NCBI GenBank assembly: GCA_022797115.1
Contig: JAAWKB010000006.1
Location: 1 to 49,189 of the forward strand
Direction: 5' to 3'
Length of the DNA stretch: 49,189 nt
Source: Oscillospiraceae bacterium
GTDB lineage: Bacteria > Bacillota > Clostridia > Oscillospirales > Oscillospiraceae
Position 1 is the stretch's first letter. Each line of letters opens with the position of its first letter. Below are positions 9,792-21,403 of the stretch, in pieces. A model generated the notes under the pieces. The model worked only from the letters and a program-made list of their open reading frames with translations, was not told the origin of the DNA and searched no databases. The translations under genes and the position numbers were made by a program.

Positions 9792-10505
9792 TCAGCTCAT
9801 TTTGATAATTTCCCGCTTCAGCCGGTCAATGATCCGCTTCTCCAGCCGGGAGATATAGGACTGGGAGATCCCAAGCCTGTCGGCCACCTCCTTCTGGGTC
9901 TGCTCTTTGTTGCCACACAGGCCGAAGCGCAGGACAATGATCTCACGCTCCCGCTCCGACAGCTTGTCAATGGCAGCGGCCAGGAGCTGCCGGTCCACAT
10001 CGTCCTCAATGGGCCGCATGACCGTGTCCGCCTCAGTGCCCAGCACGTCGCTGAGCAGCAGCTCATTGCCGTCCCAGTCCGTATTGAGCGGTTCGTCCAG
10101 GCTGACCTCATTACGCTGGGATGAGTTCTTGCGCAGGTACATCAAAATCTCGTTTTCAATGCATCGGCTGGCGTAGGTGGCCAGCTTGATATTTTTGTCC
10201 GTGCGGTAGGTATTGATGGCCTTGATCAGGCCAATGGCCCCGATGGAGATCAGATCCTCTATGTTAATGCCCGTATTTTCAAACCGCCGGGCAATGTAGA
10301 CCACCAGCCGCAGGTTCCGCTCAATCAGGGTCTGACGGACTGCCTCCTCCCCCGCGTCCAAACGGGCGAGCAGCGCAGCCTCCTCCTCCCGGTTCAGGGG
10401 CGGCGGCAGGGTGTCGCTGCCCCCGATATACATGATCTTCCCCGGCCGGATCAGCCCCAGCCGGACCAGCAGGCGGCGAAGCGCCTCTCTCCACTTATGC
10501 AGCAT
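9792..10505 (-). CDS. sigE: Sporulation sigma factor SigE (precursor)
   Basis: 237 residues from ATG 10505, which has AGGAGG nine bases upstream; an in-frame TTG nine bases earlier would touch the ribosome site. The N-terminal pro-sequence (about 1-28, [18 protein letters not shown]) is followed by sigma region 2 ([26 protein letters not shown]...[17 protein letters not shown]) and region 4 with its helix-turn-helix ([20 protein letters not shown]). SigE is the first mother-cell sigma factor, inactive until SpoIIGA removes the pro-peptide. The gene overlaps the end of spoIIGA by 11 bp, so the two are translationally coupled. Confidence 0.95.
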
Positions 10506-11367
10506 GGCCGCCAACCTCCTTCCCTGTTTCCCCGCCCCATAAGGCGCTGTAGCCGCCGCCGTCAGATACCACCGTAGGCGACAACGCTACCGTCAGTCCC
10601 TTCCACTCCCCGCTGTCAAACATCACCCGGTCCGCCCGGAAACACAGCAGCAGCCCCCCGCTGACCCCGACCGCCTGATATGGGAGCAGGCGGAAGCCGC
10701 TCCCAGCCCCCAGCCGCTCCAGGCACTTGGCCGCGCCGTCCCGCTCCAGATGGGAGAGGATTTCCCGCTCCCCCGCCGCCAGCAGCGGCTCCAGGGCGGC
10801 ATAATGGACCGTCAGCACCGGCCGGCCGGTGAGGCCGTCGGTGAGGGTGTGCCCGGTATCCAGCAGCGCGGCAAACTGCGCCGACGCGCCCCGCCATTCC
10901 ACCCGACACCGGCAAAGCTGGCCCGCCAGCTGGTGGCGGGCCCCTCCGCGGAACACCACAGATAGGACAAGGAAACATCCACCGCCTGCAAGTAAAAATA
11001 CTTTCCAGTTCAGAGCAGCCAGCAGTTCTATCCCTCTCCCACTCTCCAGCAGGCGGCCAACGGCCACCACTACGCCGCCCATGGTACACGAGAGCATAAA
11101 AAACAGCAAAAACTGCCGCAGGAATGCCTCCCGCCTCCCGAAGGCCAGCCATACCAGCCCGGCGGCGGCGGCAAACTGCGGGAAAAAGGAGGCGGCAAAG
11201 CGCAGCCCCGGCAGGGCGCACAGCGCGCCATATGTACCGCCCGCCAGCGAAGCCGCCAGCAGCCGCTTCGTCCGCACCGGCAGGCCGGAGAGCTGCGCTG
11301 TCACATACAGCGCCAGGGCATCCGTCATGCAGTTGAGAAGAAAGGCCATATCCAGATAGACAATCAT
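10495..11367 (-). CDS. spoIIGA: SpoIIGA, pro-SigE processing aspartic protease
   Basis: 290 residues. Five hydrophobic segments fill the N-terminal half ([20 protein letters not shown] start, then four more to about 140), followed by a cytosolic protease domain with the catalytic aspartate in [19 protein letters not shown] (about 168). SpoIIGA sits in the septal membrane and cleaves pro-SigE after the SpoIIR signal from the forespore. ATG 11367 is preceded by AGGAGG. The order spoIIGA-sigE and the 11-bp overlap match the spoIIG operon of other endospore formers. A Spo0A-box promoter and a hairpin overlapping the ribosome site lie just upstream. Confidence 0.93.
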
Positions 11368-11379
11368 CCCCGTCCCCCT

Positions 11380-11406
11380 CCTGCCGGGGCAGGCCGCCCC
11401 GGCAGG
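11380..11406 (-). other. Leader hairpin overlapping the spoIIGA ribosome site
   Basis: An 11-bp perfect stem (CCTGCCGGGGC with GCCCCGGCAGG, 5-nt loop). The last three bases of the 3' arm on the minus strand are the first bases of the AGGAGG ribosome site of spoIIGA, so the stem could restrict translation initiation. Confidence 0.6.
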
Positions 11407-11410
11407 AAAT

Positions 11411-11445
11411 AGTATAGACCCTGTCCGGGGCGGGATTTTGTCGGA
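11411..11445 (-). promoter_or_regulatory. Spo0A-controlled promoter of spoIIGA-sigE
   Basis: Minus-strand -10 TATACT (11411-11416). No good -35 is present at 17 bp; instead TTTGTCGGA (plus strand 11437-11445) matches the Spo0A box TTTGTCGAA at eight of nine positions and is centred near -37. This is the arrangement of the B. subtilis spoIIG promoter, where Spo0A~P binds at the -35 region. Confidence 0.65.
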
Positions 11446-11490
11446 AGTGGGACAGGGCGTGGGGATTTTTCCGAGTCCTCCGCAGGCCGC

Positions 11491-11518
11491 AAAAAGGAGG
11501 GGGCCCGCCCCCTCCTTT
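11491..11518 (-). terminator. spoIVA terminator
   Basis: Stem GGAGGGGG (11496-11503) with CCCCCTCC (11508-11515), flanked by AAA/TTT; on the minus strand it ends in TTTTT. It lies 17 bp after the spoIVA stop codon. Confidence 0.8.
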
Positions 11519-11534
11519 CACGCCGCGATGGAAT

Positions 11535-13013
11535 TTATAGGATGATGCAGATAAGGCCGCCGCTGCCCTCGTTGACAATCCGCTGAAGCGTCTCCTGGAA
11601 TTTCAGCCGCGCATCCATAGGCATCCGGTAGAGCTTCGCCTGCAGATCCTCGTTGACCAGCTCGTGGAAGCTCCGGCCAAAGATGTTTGACTCCCAGATC
11701 TGGGTGGGGTCGCCGCTGAATTTCTCCATAAGGTAGTTCACCATGTCCTCGCTCTGCTTCTCGTTGCCTACAATGGGCGACACTGTGGATTCGATGTCCA
11801 CCTTGAACATGTGGATGGACGGCGCGCTGGCCCGCAGCTTGATGCCGTAACGCCCACCCTGCCGCATGACCTCCGGCTCCTCCAGCAGCAGCTCCTCCAT
11901 CGTGGGCATAACAATGCCATACCCCGTCTCATAGACATTGTTCAGCGCGTCGGACACCTTGTCAAACCGCGCCTTGACCCCCGCCAGCTCGGTCAGAAGC
12001 TCCATCAAATCCCCGTCGTCCGCCACCGTAAAGCCGGACTGGCTGGAGAGGGTCTGATAGAACAGCTCTCGGGGCAATTGCAGCTCCGCGGAGGCCACGC
12101 CGCACCCCAAATCGATGGACAGCACCCGGCTGAGGGAGATGTCCTCCTGCTCCCCCATCTCCTTGATCACCGGCTCTACCTCACGGATGTGGGCCATCTT
12201 GCTGCCGCCCTCCCGGATCACGCCGTAGACCGCCTGCTTGATGGGGTGGTCCATGGGCAGCGCGTCCACCCAGGCGGGCAGGAAAATCCGCATCTCCCGC
12301 AGGGGAAACTCATATAAGATACTCTTGATAATGTAGGTAATGGCGTCCTCTGTCAGCTCCAGGCAGTTCACCGGCAGGCACTGCACCCCAAACCGGCTCT
12401 CAATGTCCCGGCTGATATTGGTTGCCCGGCCGCCGTGGGGCTCGGTGGAGTTGAGCAGGACGATAAACGGTTTGCCCAGCTCCTGAAGCTCTGTAATAAC
12501 CCGCTCCTCCGCCTCCAGATAGTCCTCCCGGGGGATGTCGGTGATGGAGCCATCTGTGGTGATGACAATGCCCACCGTGGAGTGCTCCTGGATCACCTTC
12601 CGGGTGCCGATCTCCGCCGCCTCGGCCATGGGGATCTCATGATCCATCCAGGGCGTCATGACCATGCGGGGCGCGCCGTCCTCAAACTGCCCCATAGCCC
12701 CCCGGACCATGTAGCCCACACTGTCGATCAGCCGCACCGCGAAGGTCGCTCCCCCCTCCAGGGATACGTCCACCGCCTCCTCTGGCACGAACTTGGGCTC
12801 CGCCGTCATGATCGTCCGGCCGCTGCCGGACTGGGGCAGTTCGTCAATCGCCCGCTCCCGGCGGTAGACATTGTCGATGTTGGGAATGACGCAGGTCTCC
12901 ATAAATCGCTTGATAAAGGTGCTCTTCCCTGTCCGCACCGGCCCCAGCACACCCACAAACAGGGACCCGCCGGTGCGTGTGGCAATGTCTTGATAGAGAT
13001 CCGTATGTATCAT
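11535..13013 (-). CDS. spoIVA: Stage IV sporulation protein A
   Basis: 492 residues, the same length as B. subtilis SpoIVA. The N-terminal ATPase domain has Walker A GPVRTGKST (24-32) and the family segments LPQSGSGRTIMTAEPKFVP and LIDSVGYMVRGAMGQFEDG. The C-terminus (about 400-492) carries the middle/C domain ending GSGGLICIIL that contacts SpoVM and coat proteins. SpoIVA polymerises with ATP on the outer forespore membrane as the base of the spore coat. ATG 13013 follows GGGAGG at five bases. A near-consensus SigE promoter is at 13101-13129. Its partners sipL and spoVM lie about 7-8 kb away in this window. Confidence 0.98.
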   Translation of the reverse strand: MIHTDLYQDIATRTGGSLFVGVLGPVRTGKSTFIKRFMETCVIPNIDNVYRRERAIDELPQSGSGRTIMTAEPKFVPEEAVDVSLEGGATFAVRLIDSVGYMVRGAMGQFEDGAPRMVMTPWMDHEIPMAEAAEIGTRKVIQEHSTVGIVITTDGSITDIPREDYLEAEERVITELQELGKPFIVLLNSTEPHGGRATNISRDIESRFGVQCLPVNCLELTEDAITYIIKSILYEFPLREMRIFLPAWVDALPMDHPIKQAVYGVIREGGSKMAHIREVEPVIKEMGEQEDISLSRVLSIDLGCGVASAELQLPRELFYQTLSSQSGFTVADDGDLMELLTELAGVKARFDKVSDALNNVYETGYGIVMPTMEELLLEEPEVMRQGGRYGIKLRASAPSIHMFKVDIESTVSPIVGNEKQSEDMVNYLMEKFSGDPTQIWESNIFGRSFHELVNEDLQAKLYRMPMDARLKFQETLQRIVNEGSGGLICIIL

Positions 13014-13633: not shown

Positions 13634-13783
13634 AGCCGGTTCCTCCCTTTTCTGTGATAATTGTACCAATATAGTACCCGCCGCCCCATTTGTCAAGAGA
13701 GCCCCAGCCCTCCCGGCGGGAAGGATCCCCCTCCTCTACTATTAAATTACTTATAAAATTCCAGAATCTATGCAGCCCGCATA

Positions 13784-13812
13784 TTGTATCCCTTTGGCAG
13801 GGTCGGTACAAT
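13784..13812 (+). promoter_or_regulatory. Candidate SigA promoter of the SLH protein gene
   Basis: -35 TTGTAT (13784-13789), 17-bp spacer, -10 TACAAT (13807-13812). It leaves a leader of about 140 nt before the start codon. Confidence 0.55.
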
Positions 13813-13818
13813 GGCTAT

Positions 13819-13958
13819 TGGGTACCTCTGCCTGCGGCAAGGCCCCTGGCCGGCCTGCGGGACGGAGGGCCGCTCCTGCCATACGCTGTTTCGATGGGGA
13901 GGTGATGGCGCGCGGGGAAGATGGCAGGAAAAATAAATTGGAAAGCGAGGAAATTTCA
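13819..13958 (+). other. Long GC-rich leader of the SLH protein gene
   Basis: No gene is supported in this stretch. It is rich in self-complementary GGCC/GCGG blocks (13840-13880) and ends in the ribosome site GCGAGG. I could not match it to a riboswitch class that I know; c-di-GMP-I was considered and does not fit. Confidence 0.35.
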
Positions 13959-16769
13959 ATGGGTACCCACAGCAAGGAACGAATGAAACGTCTTTTGTCA
14001 CTTGTGCTGTCCCTGGTACTGGCGCTGGGGACGCTGGGCACACCCGCTGCTTTGGCGGCGGATGCGGACAGTCAGGAGCCCACCAGCGGCGGGAGCAACG
14101 CGCAGACAGAGATGCAGCTCCCAACCCCCACCGGGAAACCGCAGGCTCTGGTCGAGTCAGGGGACTATTCCATCGGGCCGTCGGACGTTCCGGTGGCCGG
14201 CGGTATCCCCGATGACGCAGTGAACAAGGTCGAGGACCTGTGGCACGTGTCCTCCTCAGGCCAACTGGATGTGGCGAAGGCCATCCTGGCCTACGGCGGC
14301 GGGGACCTCTATGTCTCCAACGTCAATCCCTCCGGCACAGGCGCAGGCGGCAGCAGCACCAACCCCTTCAGCGCCAGCGAAATCTGGGTTTATGGAGCAA
14401 AGGAAGGCGTACAGAATTCCTTTGAGCTGACCCTGCCCAGAGCCGAAATCAAGGTCCACTGGCGGGCTAAGCTCACCGGCAGCAGCAGTACATCCCTGCT
14501 CTCCTTGAACGATGCCTCTGACCCGCAGATTGGCGGCGGGTTCCTTGTGGAAGAGGGCGGCGAGATCACGAACACGGATGGCCCGGCGATTGGCGTGCCC
14601 GATGGGCAGAACATTAACCTCATTGAGGTAAACGGCGGCTCTGTCACCGGCAGTACTGCTATCTGGATCGGCGATGAGACCAATGTCTTCTCAATCAACG
14701 TCAAGGATGGCTCCCTCATCTCAACAAATGGCAGTTACGCGATGTCCCTGCCCGGCGGGTTTGACGGCGCTAAGGTGTGTTTTGTGCGCATCAGCGGCGG
14801 CGAGATCTATGGCGTTATCGGTGTGCCTGTCAACTATTTTACCACCATCTCTGGCGGAACGATTATCCACTTCTCGGACACCACTGCCATGGGCGTAAAT
14901 GTACTCCCTGGTTCCGAGCTGACTGTCACTGGCGGCACGATCCACGCCGTTTCCTCGGGCGGGCCTGCCTACGGCATCTACACCGGGTCGCTGAATCTGC
15001 CGAACCAGAGCGCCGGCACCATGACAGGTGGAAAGGCCACGATAAAAGGCGGCACCATTGTCACTTCGGGTACCGCACTGTACGGCTGCGGCAAATTCAA
15101 GCTGGAAAATGTGGACGCACTGATTGCTCCCCGCACATCGCAGACCAGCCATAGCGGCACGAACATTGTGCTGCCCCATGGCACGATCCATCTGGGCTAC
15201 AGCGGCCAGACCAAGGCTGAGATAGAAGAGGAAGTCCTATCCAAGACGGAAGGCGTAACGGCCAAGTGGGTGGAGCGCGACGGCGTGATGGGCATTGAAT
15301 ACACCAAGGACGGCTCCGCCTCCTTTGTCGCAATGCCCTATGTCACAAAGTACACAGGCGAACCCGGCCCGGATAAGCCGGACAATCCCAACCCGCCGGC
15401 TACGGAAAAGACCGACCTATCCGGAGCGGCTATCACACTGGAGAAGGATTCCTGGGTCTATACCGGCGGCGAGATCAGGCCCGCGGTCACAGCTGTTACG
15501 CTCAACGGCGCAGCGGTGCCCGCCACGGGCTACACCGTGTCCTACAGCAATAACATCGAGGCCGGTACCGCCACCGTGACCGTCACCGGTACGGGCGATT
15601 ACACCGGCGCCGCCAGCAAGCATTTCACCATCACCAAGGCGGCAGAGCCCGGGAAACAGTATGCCATCCGCTACAACCTGAACCGCGGTGACTGGCGTTA
15701 CAACGCCTCCTATCCGACCGCCTATCAGGTTTCCGCCTCCAGCCAGACGCTGTCTATCGACTACCCTGTCCGGGATGGCTGCCGTTTCCTGGGATGGACC
15801 TATGGCGGCATGAGGGTCCCCAGCTACACAGTCACCCTGCCCGCCGGCTTCACCGGTGACTTGGTCCTTACGGCCAACTGGGACGACTACGGCAGCTACC
15901 GCGTGCATGTGCGCGGTTCCAGCCACGGCTATGTGAGCGCCTCCACGGACTACGCGGACGGCGGCGAGACCGTGACTCTCACCGTTGACCCCAACCGGGG
16001 CTATGAGCTGGGGAGCCTGTCTGTCTACACAGACAGCCAGGGCCGTGAGATATCCCTCTCCAGCCTGAGCAACGGCAAATACCGCTTCACGATGCCCTAC
16101 GACAGCGTAACCGTGGATGCCTCGTTTACGGCCATCCGGGAGTCCTCCCCCAAGCCTGAGACCAAACCCGCACCCAGCACGCCCGCACCTGCTCCTACCC
16201 AGACCCCATCCCCATCCCCGTCGCCTGTGCCCGCACCTACCCCTGCACCCAGCACGCCCGGCGGCGCGGTCAAGGTGTATTCAGATGTGAAGGAGACGGA
16301 CTGGTGCTATGCCGGCGTGCAGTATGTATCCCAGCGGGGGTTGATGCAGGGCGTATCCGCCACGGACTTCTCCCCCAACAGCAAGACCACCCGGGCCATG
16401 GTGTGGACCATGCTGGCCCGCCTCTCCGGACAGAATACCGAGGGCGGCGCAAATTGGTATGAGAAGGGCCAGACCTGGGCAATGTCCAACGGCATCACCG
16501 ACGGGGCCGACCCCAACGGCACCATTACCCGCGAGCAGATCGCAACCATGCTCTGGCGCAGCAAGGGCAGCCCTGCCTCCGGCGGGGATCTGGCACAATT
16601 CACCGACTCCAGCCAGATCAGTGCTTATGCGCAGGACGCCATCCGCTGGGCGGCAGAGCAGAACATTGTCAACGGCAAGGGCAACGGCATCCTGGACCCC
16701 CAGGGTCCGGCAACCCGCGCCGAGGTTGCGCAGATGTTCATGAACTTTATGATTCGTATGGGCGTGTAA
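13959..16769 (+). CDS. SLH-domain surface protein with beta-helix and Ig/InlB-like repeats
   Basis: 936 residues from ATG 13959 (GCGAGG eight bases upstream); the earlier in-frame starts are not followed by a signal peptide. A Sec signal peptide (MKRLLSLVLSLVLALGTLG, cleavage near ALA-AD) leads into a Gly/Thr-rich region of about 400 residues with repeated turns such as ISGGEIYG, ISGGTIIH, VTGGTIHA and IKGGTIVT, typical of a right-handed beta-helix. Then come an MBG-like Ig segment (about 484-565), two InlB B-repeat-like segments (about 566-715), a Pro/Ser/Thr linker (about 727-770) and three SLH modules (about 772-936) that bind pyruvylated wall polymer. It is a surface-layer-anchored adhesin or glycan-binding protein by architecture; the ligand is unknown. 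It has its own promoter and terminator. Confidence 0.9.
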   Translation: MGTHSKERMKRLLSLVLSLVLALGTLGTPAALAADADSQEPTSGGSNAQTEMQLPTPTGKPQALVESGDYSIGPSDVPVAGGIPDDAVNKVEDLWHVSSSGQLDVAKAILAYGGGDLYVSNVNPSGTGAGGSSTNPFSASEIWVYGAKEGVQNSFELTLPRAEIKVHWRAKLTGSSSTSLLSLNDASDPQIGGGFLVEEGGEITNTDGPAIGVPDGQNINLIEVNGGSVTGSTAIWIGDETNVFSINVKDGSLISTNGSYAMSLPGGFDGAKVCFVRISGGEIYGVIGVPVNYFTTISGGTIIHFSDTTAMGVNVLPGSELTVTGGTIHAVSSGGPAYGIYTGSLNLPNQSAGTMTGGKATIKGGTIVTSGTALYGCGKFKLENVDALIAPRTSQTSHSGTNIVLPHGTIHLGYSGQTKAEIEEEVLSKTEGVTAKWVERDGVMGIEYTKDGSASFVAMPYVTKYTGEPGPDKPDNPNPPATEKTDLSGAAITLEKDSWVYTGGEIRPAVTAVTLNGAAVPATGYTVSYSNNIEAGTATVTVTGTGDYTGAASKHFTITKAAEPGKQYAIRYNLNRGDWRYNASYPTAYQVSASSQTLSIDYPVRDGCRFLGWTYGGMRVPSYTVTLPAGFTGDLVLTANWDDYGSYRVHVRGSSHGYVSASTDYADGGETVTLTVDPNRGYELGSLSVYTDSQGREISLSSLSNGKYRFTMPYDSVTVDASFTAIRESSPKPETKPAPSTPAPAPTQTPSPSPSPVPAPTPAPSTPGGAVKVYSDVKETDWCYAGVQYVSQRGLMQGVSATDFSPNSKTTRAMVWTMLARLSGQNTEGGANWYEKGQTWAMSNGITDGADPNGTITREQIATMLWRSKGSPASGGDLAQFTDSSQISAYAQDAIRWAAEQNIVNGKGNGILDPQGPATRAEVAQMFMNFMIRMGV

Positions 16770-17253: not shown

Positions 17254-17416
17254 GGCGATCCTCCTCTTTACTTTCGACAGAAAAATAGGTATACTTACTC
17301 TATAAAATTTTTTCTGAACTTACAATATGCTCTCTGCATAGTATGGCGGTTTTTTCCCTCCAGATGTGCAAATGTCATCTGCTGTGAGTATGGGGGGAGA
17401 GTATGGGGGGATTTCC

Positions 17417-18133
17417 ATGTACACTTGGCTTTTGAACGCATTGCAGGCGGAATATGAAACTGTCCGCCTGATCAAGGAAAGCAGCCGGGGCTGTGTGCGC
17501 CTCATCCAGCATTGCCGCACGGGCCAGCAGTTCATCCTGCGGCAGTTCTCCGGGAATGGCGCTATATACCAGCAGCTGATGCAGTTCCAATGCAGGAATA
17601 TTCCCCAGATTTTTGAGGTTGCGCATGGGGAGGACACTCTGGTCATCGAAGAGTTTATCAAGGGCGATTCCCTGGGTTTCCTCCTGAAGGGAGCCCTATT
17701 TACAGCGGCGGAGACCCGGAAGATCGTTTTCCAGCTGTGTCAGGCGCTGTGGGTGCTCCAATCCGTGGGCGCTGTCCACCGGGATATCAAGCCGGAAAAT
17801 GTAATCCTGCGGGGGAAGGAAGCGGTGCTCATCGACTTTGATGCCGCCCGTATCCAAAAACCCTGGACCGAAGCGGACACCCAGATCTTGGGGACAGTCG
17901 GCTTTGCTGCCCCGGAGCAGTACGGCCTGTCCCAGACTGATTTCCACACCGACATCTATGCCCTTGGGATTTTGATGAATATCATGTTGACCGGGGAACA
18001 TCCCACCCGGAGGTTGGCCCGCGGCCCGCTGGGCAGAGTGGTGGAACGCTGCACCCGCATAAACCCGGAAAAACGATCAGGCCGCCCCGCTGCTGGAGGA
18101 AACAGCCCCTCTATCTGGCGGCGGCGCTGGTAA
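17417..18133 (+). CDS. Eukaryotic-like Ser/Thr protein kinase domain, frameshifted at its 3' end
   Basis: 238 residues from ATG 17417 (GGGGGG six bases upstream). Kinase motifs: HRDIKPEN (121-128), LIDFDAARI (DFD in place of DFG, 140-142), GTVGFAAPEQYG (APE, 165-167), TDIYALGILM and the terminal Arg of RCTRINPEKR (220). The usual beta3 lysine (VAIK) is arginine here (FILRQF, Arg42) and there is no clear glycine-rich loop. After residue 220 the sequence becomes non-family-like and stops at 18133. In the -1 frame, from codon 18073 on, the reading continues through WRKQPLYLAAALVISALALG, a basic stop-transfer and membrane helix, into the beta-helix ORF at 18142. A -1 shift at the GGAAAAAC run (18067-18074) would join them into one transmembrane kinase. 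Confidence 0.8.
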   Translation: MYTWLLNALQAEYETVRLIKESSRGCVRLIQHCRTGQQFILRQFSGNGAIYQQLMQFQCRNIPQIFEVAHGEDTLVIEEFIKGDSLGFLLKGALFTAAETRKIVFQLCQALWVLQSVGAVHRDIKPENVILRGKEAVLIDFDAARIQKPWTEADTQILGTVGFAAPEQYGLSQTDFHTDIYALGILMNIMLTGEHPTRRLARGPLGRVVERCTRINPEKRSGRPAAGGNSPSIWRRRW

Positions 18134-18141
18134 TTTCAGCC

Positions 18142-19257
18142 TTGGCGTTGGGATGGTGGTTCTCCGGCAGGCCGCAGGTCTACGACAACGGTACCGCCGA
18201 AGCCATCTATCCCAGTGTGGACGGGGACTACCAGTTCTGCATCGCCTGGGCTAACACGCCTTTTCAGCCAGACGCCCCACGCCACACCAGCTGTGAGCTG
18301 GACATGGACCTCCGCTATACCTCTCTGCTGCATATCAACCATCTGGAAAGCAGAACCTGTGCCCCAGAGGCGTTCCTGCAAAAAATTGACAGTATCACAG
18401 CGGAATTTGTTGGGGCCGGCGGCCCTCTGGAGATCAGCTGCACGCAACCCCAGCAGGATACCAGCTATGTCCCCGACGCTGCCGCCATCACCTATGTAGA
18501 TTTCAAGCTCCGTGAAGAGGGAACCTATTCGGCGGATTTGATCTTTACAGTAACGATGAAAAATGGTGATATCATCCGGGTCCGCCAGGAGCAGACCTTC
18601 CAGAGCATCCCCACCTACAACTACACCAGCGAGGATGCTCCTATAGATACGATTGCAGATTTACAGGCGTTCGTAGACGAGCTCGGTGAGACGATACATG
18701 GCCAAGCGGTGGTCAACGTCCATCTCCCCCCTGTGGTCTATGAGGGAAATCTGACCCTGGACAAGATGCCAGTCAACTTCATTGGCAGCTTTGGAGCACA
18801 CGGAGAGCGCACCACCTTCTGCGGCACGGTCCTCCTGACAATCAGGGGAAACGGTCTCTCATATTTTGACGATATCGATTTTGTGGGCAGCGGAGGCCAG
18901 GTGGGACTGTCGGTTTCGTCCCGGCTCCATCTGACGGGATGCCGGATCAAGGGGTGGAGCACCGGTGTGCTATGTGGCACAAATGGCTTTGTCAACGCGG
19001 ACGAATGTGTCTTTGAGGACAACGGTGTTGGGTTCCATTTTAACAGTACAGACGGCAGTATCTCTGACTCCCGGTATGATAATAACATTTTCCGGAACAA
19101 TGATACAGCCCTTTTGTTGGAAAATGTGCCCACTGATGTTGCTTTGTCCTTCAATGGCAGCCGTTTTTCCGGCAATGGTGTGGATATTGACAACCAATGC
19201 CGTCAGGAGCTGGTCTTATCAAACGCGGTATTTGATCCGACTGAGGACATCGCCTGA
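18142..19257 (+). CDS. Extracellular beta-helix part of the transmembrane kinase (separate frame)
   Basis: 371 residues read from a TTG at 18142, but the frame is open back to at least 18073 and no ribosome site supports a start here, so this is best seen as the C-terminal part of the kinase gene. A membrane helix (LYLAAALVISALALGWWF) is followed by an extracytoplasmic domain of about 150 residues and then a right-handed parallel beta-helix: IRGNGLSYFDDIDFVG, LHLTGCRIKGWSTGV, NADECVFEDNGVGF, ISDSRYDNNIFRNNDTALLL, LSFNGSRFSGNGVDI. Such helices bind glycans or form sensor surfaces. The terminator at 19334 closes the unit. The frameshift could be genuine decay, programmed slippage or a sequencing error. 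Confidence 0.75.
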   Translation: MALGWWFSGRPQVYDNGTAEAIYPSVDGDYQFCIAWANTPFQPDAPRHTSCELDMDLRYTSLLHINHLESRTCAPEAFLQKIDSITAEFVGAGGPLEISCTQPQQDTSYVPDAAAITYVDFKLREEGTYSADLIFTVTMKNGDIIRVRQEQTFQSIPTYNYTSEDAPIDTIADLQAFVDELGETIHGQAVVNVHLPPVVYEGNLTLDKMPVNFIGSFGAHGERTTFCGTVLLTIRGNGLSYFDDIDFVGSGGQVGLSVSSRLHLTGCRIKGWSTGVLCGTNGFVNADECVFEDNGVGFHFNSTDGSISDSRYDNNIFRNNDTALLLENVPTDVALSFNGSRFSGNGVDIDNQCRQELVLSNAVFDPTEDIA

Positions 19258-19400: not shown

Positions 19401-20933
19401 CTACCGCGCCCGTGGAATCAGCAGCAGCCGGTCCGGTGTAATCTGCGTCTCGTCCTCCAGCTCGTTGACCGCGAGAATCCCGCCGCAGGTGGCGCGGTAC
19501 TGCTTGGCCACAGACCACAGGGTCTCCCCTGCCCCCAGCTTTCGCAGGATCAGGGACGGCGCGGGCTCCCGGCCCGGGTCCTCTTCCTCCGTCTCTCCCC
19601 CGCTGACGCAGATATAGCGCCGCCGGCTGGATGCCGCCACCGCGCACTCCAGCGGGAAACGCAGCTCAATGCCCTCTGGCATGATATTGGCAATCACGTC
19701 CCCATGGCAGGCGGCCTCGGCCTGGCAGTCCGTCTCCCCCTCCGGCAGCTCCGTGGGGATAGCTGCGGAAAACTCCCGGTGGACAGATCCCAGCACGTCG
19801 TTCTCATCCAGGTACAGGCATCTGGCCCACACGGGCACCTTCAGTTCCCCGCCGCTCAGCTGGGCACCGCCGCAGCCAATCTCCATATCCACCACCGATT
19901 TGACGGCTACGCCGGTCTCCAGCAGCTCCCGCACATTCTGACGGCGGATGCCGCACTGGCTGTCCTCGCTCAGCTCCAGCTCCGCCGTCTGACAGGCGAC
20001 GGGGGCGGCGGTGCTGTAGAGATCGGCAATAAAGCTGACCTCATCCTCCCGCCAGACCGTCACCCGCGTGCGCAGCATCAGCTCCAGGGTGAGCACATAG
20101 GCGTCCTCCGGCGCACCTTCACTGCCCGGACGACACTCCACACTGAGCAGGCGGTATGCCGCCTCGCTCTCGCAGTCCTCGTCAAAGCCATTCCCCTCGA
20201 TGATCTGGGAAAAGGGCAGCTCCTGCTGAAGGACGGCCAGCCTGCCGCCCCCCTCCCGGTACAGGACGGAGACGGAGATCAGGCCCTTGACCACCAACTT
20301 GCTGCCAATGAGCTTGCTGTCCGTGCCCTTGATATCCACCCGCGTGGACAGGATCTCCTCCACACCGCCCCGGCCCGGGGACAGGGGCAGCTCCTCGGTG
20401 AAGGTAAACTCCTTCTCCCGCACGCCTGCCGCCACCCGCGTATGCTTCTTTTCGCACAGCAGCTGAACCCCCTCCCCCGTCCCCTCGTCCACACCCGTGC
20501 AGACAGACAGGGATACATGGCGGCAGCCACTGGGATAGAGGACCAGGTTGGCCCTGGTCAGCACCTTCCTGGGGTTCAGGACCCGGGTGTCAATCCCATG
20601 GAGCTCCCCGCGGATATCCAGGAATTCACACTCCGCGCCCCCCTGCCCCTCGCCGTAGCACTGGAAGGGGATCTGGAAATGGAGGGCCCGGGGGCCGTCC
20701 TCCTTCTCCGGTATGTACAGCACGGACACCTCTACCGAGCCGCTGGCGGAAAACCGCCCGTCGCCGGTCAGCTCCCGGTTGGTCAGGCACACCACCCCTG
20801 TGGTGTCCACAATCCGCGCGATGTCCCCGCAGCTGTCCGGCACAATATTCTCCCGCATGGCCTCACAGGAAAAGGGGGCAAAGTGGAGCGGCTCATAGTA
20901 GTCATGGCCGCTTTTTTTGAATTTCAATTCCAT
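19401..20933 (-). CDS. sipL: SipL, SpoIVA-interacting coat protein (SPOCS + LysM)
   Basis: 510 residues. Three DUF3794/SPOCS-type modules (roughly 25-150, 170-290 and 310-410) are rich in alternating beta strands such as GSVEVSVLYIPEK and VKGLISVSVLYREGG. A LysM domain closes the protein (about 463-508, LGAGETLWSVAKQYRATCGGILAVNELED). This is the architecture of Clostridioides difficile SipL, the functional counterpart of SpoVID, which binds SpoIVA through its LysM domain and is needed for coat encasement. The ATG has GGGAGG about nine bases upstream. spoVM lies 75 bp upstream on the same strand. Confidence 0.92.
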   Translation of the reverse strand: MELKFKKSGHDYYEPLHFAPFSCEAMRENIVPDSCGDIARIVDTTGVVCLTNRELTGDGRFSASGSVEVSVLYIPEKEDGPRALHFQIPFQCYGEGQGGAECEFLDIRGELHGIDTRVLNPRKVLTRANLVLYPSGCRHVSLSVCTGVDEGTGEGVQLLCEKKHTRVAAGVREKEFTFTEELPLSPGRGGVEEILSTRVDIKGTDSKLIGSKLVVKGLISVSVLYREGGGRLAVLQQELPFSQIIEGNGFDEDCESEAAYRLLSVECRPGSEGAPEDAYVLTLELMLRTRVTVWREDEVSFIADLYSTAAPVACQTAELELSEDSQCGIRRQNVRELLETGVAVKSVVDMEIGCGGAQLSGGELKVPVWARCLYLDENDVLGSVHREFSAAIPTELPEGETDCQAEAACHGDVIANIMPEGIELRFPLECAVAASSRRRYICVSGGETEEEDPGREPAPSLILRKLGAGETLWSVAKQYRATCGGILAVNELEDETQITPDRLLLIPRAR

Positions 20934-21008
20934 TGTTGGCGTCCTCCCTCAGTATGGTGTTCAAGCCCTCGTTGACTCCAGTCTATGAGCGGACGCGGCG
21001 GACTATGC

Positions 21009-21083
21009 CTACCCCTTGATCCCAAAGATTCTGCGCAGGATGCCGTTCAAAATTTTGGGCGACTTGATAACGACGATCTTCAT
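21009..21083 (-). CDS. spoVM: SpoVM, amphipathic forespore-membrane peptide
   Basis: A 24-codon gene on the minus strand. The peptide starts MKIVVIKSPKILNG and ends ILRRIFGIKG. Against B. subtilis SpoVM (26 residues, MKFYTIKLPKFLGGIVRAML...) it keeps Met1, Lys2, Ile6, Lys7, Pro9, Lys10, Leu12, Gly14, Ile15 and Arg17, including Pro9, which is critical for curvature recognition. AAGGAGG lies five bases before the ATG. It sits between a 49-residue membrane peptide (13 bp away) and sipL (75 bp), on one transcript. SpoVM inserts into the convex outer forespore membrane and recruits SpoIVA, and spoIVA is in this same window. It is short enough to be missed by automatic gene callers. Confidence 0.9.
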   Translation of the reverse strand: MKIVVIKSPKILNGILRRIFGIKG

Positions 21084-21096
21084 GGGCGCCTCCTTC

Positions 21097-21246
21097 CTAC
21101 TTGCGCATACAGCCGCAGCCGCAGCCGATCAGCAGAAATGCCACAAGGAACAGGAGGCACCCTGTTGGAAAGATGGCGGCGATCAGGATGCCCAGCCCCA
21201 GGGCCGTGGCGCAGATCCCCAGCCAGCGATAGTTTCTCATCCGCAT
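21097..21246 (-). CDS. 49-residue membrane peptide with Cys-rich tail, upstream of spoVM
   Basis: Reading from ATG 21246 (nine bases after AAGGAGG; a nearer ATG at 21252 is only three bases away) gives MRMRNYRWLGICATALGLGI, a second hydrophobic segment CLLFLVAFLLIGC and the tail GCGCGCMRK. Two membrane-spanning stretches are separated by FPTG. No family is recognised. Its position 13 bp before spoVM and its own strong ribosome site suggest it is co-expressed with spoVM and sipL during sporulation (inference). A TATAAT is found about 45 bp upstream (near 21280), without a convincing -35. Confidence 0.65.
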   Translation of the reverse strand: MRMRNYRWLGICATALGLGILIAAIFPTGCLLFLVAFLLIGCGCGCMRK

Positions 21247-21403
21247 TCTCATTCGCCTCCTTATCGCTTGGGTACTACTATTATATACAGCCGCGTTCCC
21301 GTTTGCGCCTGGCGGCGGGAGCCGCCGCGCCGAAAAATCAGTCCCCGCAGCCGCTCTATTCCTGGATAATTGCAAAAAACTAAGAAAAAAGTGACATTAG
21401 TTC

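Follow-up and report, generated by a model that had tools for sequence, protein, structure and literature searches.

The DNA analysed here (the window, 49,189 nucleotides) carries three genes in close succession on its minus strand: an ORF of 49 to 51 codons, then spoVM, then sipL, with gaps of 13 bp and 75 bp between them. The first gene of the unit (21097..21246, minus strand) encodes a predicted two-helix membrane peptide, an assignment drawn from the ORF itself, its pN/pS ratio, a family profile and an AlphaFold model. Its Shine-Dalgarno sequence AAGGAGG (21256..21262, minus strand) precedes the ATG at 21246 by 9 nt and another ATG, at 21252, by 3 nt. The 24-codon spoVM gene, MKIVVIKSPKILNGILRRIFGIKG (21009..21083, minus strand), has the same AAGGAGG motif 5 nt before its ATG (21089..21095, minus strand), and sipL occupies 19401..20933 on the same strand. 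When all coordinates were re-derived, the gene order, the spacing and both ribosome sites agreed with those claimed in an earlier, sequence-only reading of this DNA.

The three known sporulation proteins which that reading had placed in the window, SpoVM, SipL and SpoIVA, were rightly named. The sipL product combines a SPOCS domain (PF12673, 1.4e-22) with a C-terminal LysM domain (PF01476, 1.4e-5), as is expected of SipL. The spoIVA gene, a separate unit (11535..13013, minus strand), scores 674.6 bits against TIGR02836, whose cut-off is 459.9, and the 24-codon ORF passes NCBIfam NF033436. SpoIVA is a direct partner of both SpoVM and SipL in C. difficile, according to the accessible text of PMC5607322. 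The genes sigE (9792..10514, minus strand), a spoIIGA-like gene (10495..11367, minus strand; 114 bits, below the model cut-off of 209.55) and spoIVA are grouped near the sipL unit, within 9792-13013. The plus strand holds a 999-aa protein with SLH and InlB-type B-repeat domains (13770-16769), a Ser/Thr protein-kinase-like ORF (17366-18133) and an ORF without family matches (18142-19257), the latter two convergent to sipL.

Against NF033436 (SpoVM_broad) the 24-aa ORF scores 35.7 bits, with a cut-off of 31. In comparison with B. subtilis SpoVM it scores 47; the next ORF of the window reaches 16, and no more than 26 was reached in 30 Markov-shuffled control windows. The ten residues claimed to be common to the two proteins are present, Lys7, Pro9 and Lys10 among them, and Gly21 brings the number to 11. 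Pro9 is given as the only invariant SpoVM residue in the available portion of PMC5607322; it stands in 34 of 34 rows of our SpoVM alignment A2, the rows of which had been chosen with a proline pattern. The pN/pS of spoVM is 0.187 among the genus loci. Judged by its sequence, the 24-codon ORF is spoVM, a member of the known SpoVM family. Its presence in relatives, as foreseen in the sequence-only reading, was found at all 21 loci of the genus that carry the peptide, whereas part of the genomes of the wider family lack it. The latter bears on the universality of spoVM, and not on the identity of the ORF in the window.

The peptide ORF has its stop codon ending at 21097 and can open at the ATG at 21246 (49 aa) or at 21252 (51 aa). 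An alignment of genus relatives points to the third ATG as the start (47 aa), so the true length may be anywhere from 47 to 51 residues. The peptide is carried by 21 of the 25 genomes of the genus, including all nine of the near-complete ones. Among 16 of the 21 genus loci (four missed the search pattern, and one had Ns), pN/pS was 0.242 in the peptide frame versus 0.39 to 2.8 in the five other frames, and variable sites fell 17/12/33 on the three codon positions of the peptide frame. The ORF is a protein-coding gene under purifying selection. The earlier reading had made its case depend on selection acting on the 49-codon ORF, and that selection is present.

Database searches gave the window peptide no match above a Pfam cut-off (best 15.9 bits versus 33) or an NCBIfam cut-off (best 9.1 bits versus 27.7), and none to an NCBIfam SpoVM model. 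The other 33 members of our peptide alignment A1 (34 rows; M1, P27 and G43 invariant) produced weak matches to assorted Pfam and NCBIfam families, the best with an E of 1.7e-4 in one member. The PHROGs contained no match for the window peptide at E<=0.1, and the best for other members was at E 0.0035. A PDB search with the peptide family found no relative.

AlphaFold, run on A1, predicts helices at residues 5-24 and 29-48 around P27 in a model of middling confidence (mean pLDDT 71.2, pTM 0.37). The predicted shape is that of two short helices with a turn at the invariant proline and with basic ends. Over the 34 rows the mean net charge is +3.35 at the N-end (positive in 34/34), +0.09 in the loop and +1.35 at the C-end (positive in 30/34), and charged residues take up 6 of 952 positions in the core. 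By the positive-inside rule, basic ends are found on the cytosolic side, so both ends of the peptide would face the mother-cell cytosol. The GCGCGC tail of the window peptide, which had been stressed earlier, is not conserved across A1. SpoVM resembles the peptide as a small sporulation peptide and its direct neighbour, but it is a short amphipathic helix, unlike the predicted two-helix hairpin, and its model NF033436 is absent from the 49-aa peptide.

A promoter-like −10 element, GTATATAATA (21279..21288, minus strand), precedes the peptide gene and is conserved in genus and family. The sequence GTATATAMT (the GTATATAAT element) occurs at one upstream place in 17 of 17 aligned genus loci. Of 37 family loci, 28 hold its strict form (mean of 0.3 in shuffled sequences), as do 8 of the 42 other loci (mean of 1.6 in shuffled sequences), for a pattern that was picked after inspecting those same upstream sequences; in the window alone it occurs twice against 0.65 expected, which is not beyond chance. 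A hand-made sigma-E matrix gave a mean of 10.1 upstream of the peptide, only slightly more than the 9.4 for shuffled sequences, with 72 of 85 upstream sequences above their own shuffles. The −35 side of the element reads AAC/CAC, unlike the ATA of the textbook sigma-E promoter. Sigma-E and sigma-K are both mother-cell factors, and we take the −10 element to be possibly of this sigma-E/K type. Upstream of spoIVA in the window stands GCATATT-14-CATACAGT, which fits the sigma-E consensus.

Distribution of the peptide family and its neighbours

When the single window peptide was used as a query on 150 genomes of the window's family, the better matches adjoined SpoVM matches. A family profile, built from 28 peptides of the window's family alone, was tested against 5,205 ORFs that came from 81 loci of other families. 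At E<0.001 it returned 31 matches, every one of them within 150 bp upstream of spoVM, and at E<=1 the same held for 41 of 43 matches. Alignment A1 found the peptide in 95 of the 150 family genomes (E<=0.01), with one match apiece in most of them. The stricter E<=0.001 gave 140 genomes with the peptide out of 391 for the class (88 of 223 genera) and 42 out of 249 for the phylum. Scanning of 19 phylum loci revealed a SpoVM-like ORF next to the peptide in 14 (L233 doubtful) and none in five.

For loci with gaps of no more than 70 bp, the median distance from peptide to spoVM is 13 bp in the window's family (38 loci) and 18 bp elsewhere (44 loci). A membrane ORF lies upstream of spoVM in 94 of 136 loci, a count which includes about seven ORFs of another hydrophobic kind. 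The SpoVM regular expression failed at 8 of 144 loci, and at four or more (L077, L102, L103 and the window itself, L040) it selected an incorrect ORF. The different hydrophobic ORF, of 41-62 aa and 75-107 bp before spoVM, was seen at L151, L156, L157, L158, L160 and L178 (families f11, f57 and f75), and the peptide profile does not match it.

The sipL gene follows on the same strand within 320 bp downstream of spoVM in 46 of 46 family loci compared, out of 55 family spoVM loci. By contrast, a tblastn search with the window SipL (E<=1e-3) on stretches of 1.7-3.1 kb gave no match in the 81 loci of other families. The wide association, met in many families of the class, is that of the peptide-spoVM pair, and an adjoining sipL is a trait of the window's family.

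Thirteen family genomes carry a second type of upstream peptide (..FPASLITLGAGA.LGYRGR.WL..), which overlaps spoVM by 4 bp in nine of them (L039, L041, L051, L060, L098, L101, L105, L106 and L109). Profile comparison of this type with the hairpin peptide gave a probability of 48% and a P of 1.9e-4, with 0.26 for the reversed control; by this likeness the second type is perhaps a diverged relative. In a few cases (L067; genomes G231 and G259, family f27) the hairpin peptide is matched twice at close distance, in the manner of a tandem copy.

Loci without spoVM and co-occurrence with SpoIVA

Twenty family loci were picked by hand, mostly better-scoring peptide matches without an adjoining NF033436 match (E<=0.3), and represent a subset of such loci. 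At 13 of them the peptide lies 57-117 bp before sipL with no SpoVM-like reading in three frames, and at the other seven a divergent SpoVM is present; sipL is visible at 19 of the 20. The sensitive SpoVM alignment A2, searched over the window's family (E<=0.0022), detected SpoVM in 78 of 150 genomes and in none of the 13 genomes with a spoVM-less locus. NF033436 passes its curated cut-off in 13 of the 150 genomes. This difference between the NCBI model and A2 (family loci L032-L061 and L091-L116) indicates that many clostridial spoVM genes are likely unannotated. The accessible text of Galperin et al. 2012 (PMC3533761) likewise describes SpoVM as rarely annotated, and leaves open a distant SpoVM in clostridia where none was detected.

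Another arrangement was seen in family f25, at the spoVM-rpmB site. At all five loci read, the peptide and an rpmB-like ORF face each other, and the stretch between the two shows no SpoVM-like ORF; the five genomes hold no NF033436 match at E<=0.01. In a SipL tree of 71 rows, which has long branches and unsettled bootstrap values, the 13 spoVM-less rows require nine label changes, at least six of them forced by well-supported branches.

The peptide, of either type, is present in 99 of 125 SpoIVA-positive family genomes versus 4 of 25 SpoIVA-negative ones (Fisher value 3e-9, a guide only, since related species are not independent). The four SpoIVA-negative genomes with the peptide also have SpoVM, so that SpoIVA may be missing from them for assembly reasons. 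One genome (G125, locus L008) is rated 100% complete and carries peptide, spoVM and sipL, yet has no SpoIVA match at E<=1e-10.

Among the 72 SpoIVA-positive genomes that are at least 95% complete, 38 have both peptide and SpoVM, 19 the peptide only, 11 SpoVM only and 4 neither. Eight of the 19 peptide-only genomes were read as loci. Of the 11 genomes with SpoVM only, nine had their SpoVM locus placed correctly and showed no hydrophobic ORF upstream of it; in the remaining two (L103 and L114) the locus was not placed. The 11 SpoVM-only genomes, together with the 4 that have neither, show that the peptide is not universal. These counts give no support to the idea that the peptide replaces SpoVM, because the two are distributed close to independently.

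A homologue in C. difficile

In C. difficile, spoVM is cotranscribed after CD25622 in a sigma-E-dependent manner, as reported in the accessible part of PMC5607322. The same text (2017) describes CD25622 as a 50-aa protein of unknown function and takes it to be specific to Peptostreptococcaceae. Two named genomes of C. difficile each contain a 50-aa ORF 35 bp before spoVM and, as judged by eye, an rpmB-like ORF beyond the pair on the other strand. By its length and place this ORF is evidently CD25622. Genome G449 (locus L142) has a peptide of identical sequence, which the family-only profile, built without it, matches at E=3.1e-8 among the 5,205 ORFs. The A1 profile matches the C. difficile ORF at E=3e-11, a circular result because A1 contains that row; the non-circular evidence is the value of 3.1e-8 plus the identity.

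CD25622 resembles the window peptide in being of 50 aa, directly before spoVM and related by profile. Its neighbourhood differs, since the pair lies beside rpmB in C. difficile and beside sipL in the window. Its range also differs from the one stated in the available text of PMC5607322: it was held to be Peptostreptococcaceae-specific, whereas our search of the class turned up relatives in 140 of the 391 genomes examined. Within the literature accessible to us, no account of the peptide beyond that paper was found. The peptide family is thus not wholly new, its C. difficile homologue having been known since 2017.

Insertion mutants of CD25622, which are polar on spoVM, lost heat resistance 3- to 5-fold, no worse than spoVM mutants, and the authors judged CD25622 to be of little impact beyond the loss of spoVM (PMC5607322, accessible text). 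Figures in that text for strain JIR8094, not stressed by its authors, put the morphological defect at 42% of CD25622-spoVM mutant cells versus 32% of spoVM mutant cells, which is a small difference. The equal heat resistance of the polar insertions and spoVM mutants in that account, together with the 11 SpoVM-only and 4 neither genomes, disfavours an essential role of the peptide.

Proposed role and alternative explanations

We propose that the machinery for building the spore surface probably includes this peptide as a component overlooked so far. This candidate role is supported by purifying selection, the place of the gene, the link to SpoIVA, retention at spoVM-less loci, the promoter-like element, the charge pattern, the predicted helices, the reported sigma-E-dependent cotranscription of the C. 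difficile homologue with spoVM and the small difference seen in strain JIR8094. The sequence-only reading had called the peptide a new member of the forespore surface; selection, position by spoVM and sipL, co-occurrence with SpoIVA and the promoter-like element speak for the membership, but the newness gives way to CD25622, which was already known. Against the role we count the C. difficile mutant results, the SpoIVA-positive genomes in which no peptide was detected, the middling confidence of the structure model and the lack of a PDB match, as well as that sipL adjoins the pair only in the window's family and that the −35 half is not that of textbook sigma-E.

As to the mechanism, we lean towards a mother-cell sporulation operon of hairpin peptide, spoVM and sipL, the peptide being a membrane component that works with the SpoIVA/SipL basement layer. 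It would insert as a hairpin into the mother-cell membrane destined to become the outer forespore membrane, keep both ends in the mother-cell cytosol, and act there with that layer. Our first choice for its action, which we put forward tentatively, is that it may help to keep the SpoIVA/SipL layer attached to the membrane, either alongside SpoVM or in its place.

It is more doubtful, though still worth weighing, that the peptide would tie the SpoIVA/SipL layer to cortex-making proteins, serving as a membrane adaptor to cortex enzymes, and not as an anchor, by analogy with C. difficile SpoVQ (CD3457). The accessible text of PMC8265636 describes SpoVQ as a membrane protein of sporulation which has SipL and SpoIVA as binding partners, affects the cortex and occurs in Peptostreptococcaceae only, so that other clostridia may use another linker. 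In the available portion of PMC5607322, some spoVM mutant cells of C. difficile show uneven cortex, which also fits such a linker. However, the peptide has almost no soluble part for binding, and SpoVQ and a peptide occur together in C. difficile. By its description in PMC8265636, as far as accessible, SpoVQ is set apart from the peptide by an N-terminal membrane segment followed by a soluble part, and by its confinement to Peptostreptococcaceae.

The peptide gene might instead be a leader or translational coupler that merely sets spoVM output, a reading which the short median gaps to spoVM (13 and 18 bp) and the 4-bp overlap of the second type (9 of 13 genomes) would suit. We regard it as very unlikely. 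The amino-acid sequence itself is selected and conserved across families, and retention of the gene where spoVM is gone argues that it is not just a spoVM leader; the spoVM-less loci largely refute this reading. There is as little chance that the peptide is some other membrane-active peptide (toxin, holin or bacteriocin) placed there fortuitously. It is indeed small, hydrophobic and basic, and single members weakly match assorted small membrane families; but it has the same sporulation-gene neighbours across families, none of the PHROGs matched (best E 0.0035) bears a lysis or holin name, and it is under purifying selection and matched just once in most of the 95 genomes of the family, so the phage or toxin reading was rejected. 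Although both strands of the window carry open ORFs, it is next to inconceivable that the peptide is a chance ORF opposite the plus-strand ORF at 20985-21383 and not a gene, a reading refuted by the pN/pS of the peptide frame (0.24 against 0.39-2.8 in the five others, with the 17/12/33 codon-position pattern) and by its presence in 21 of 25 genus genomes.

The very small coat and cortex protein CmpA of Bacillus, which acts with SpoIVA and SpoVM, is comparable to the hairpin peptide in its small size and in the role proposed here. It is set apart by description, being confined to Bacillales in the accessible text of PMC5607322.

A member of the spore-surface machinery of this kind would bear on the attachment of the basement layer in clostridia. 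In fixing their SpoIVA/SipL layer to the forespore, clostridia do without the Bacillus proteins SpoVID, SafA and CmpA. One speculative idea, which we rate as rather improbable, is that the clostridial basement layer has in the peptide a second small membrane element, which receives SpoIVA/SipL where SpoVM has been lost. If true, this would help to account for the ability of lineages to lose SpoVM and for its being largely dispensable in C. difficile. The peptide also provides a conserved candidate partner that was formerly set aside as lineage-specific. As a position marker, it reveals lineages in which spoVM appears to be lost and exposes divergent SpoVMs, as at 7 of the 20 loci.
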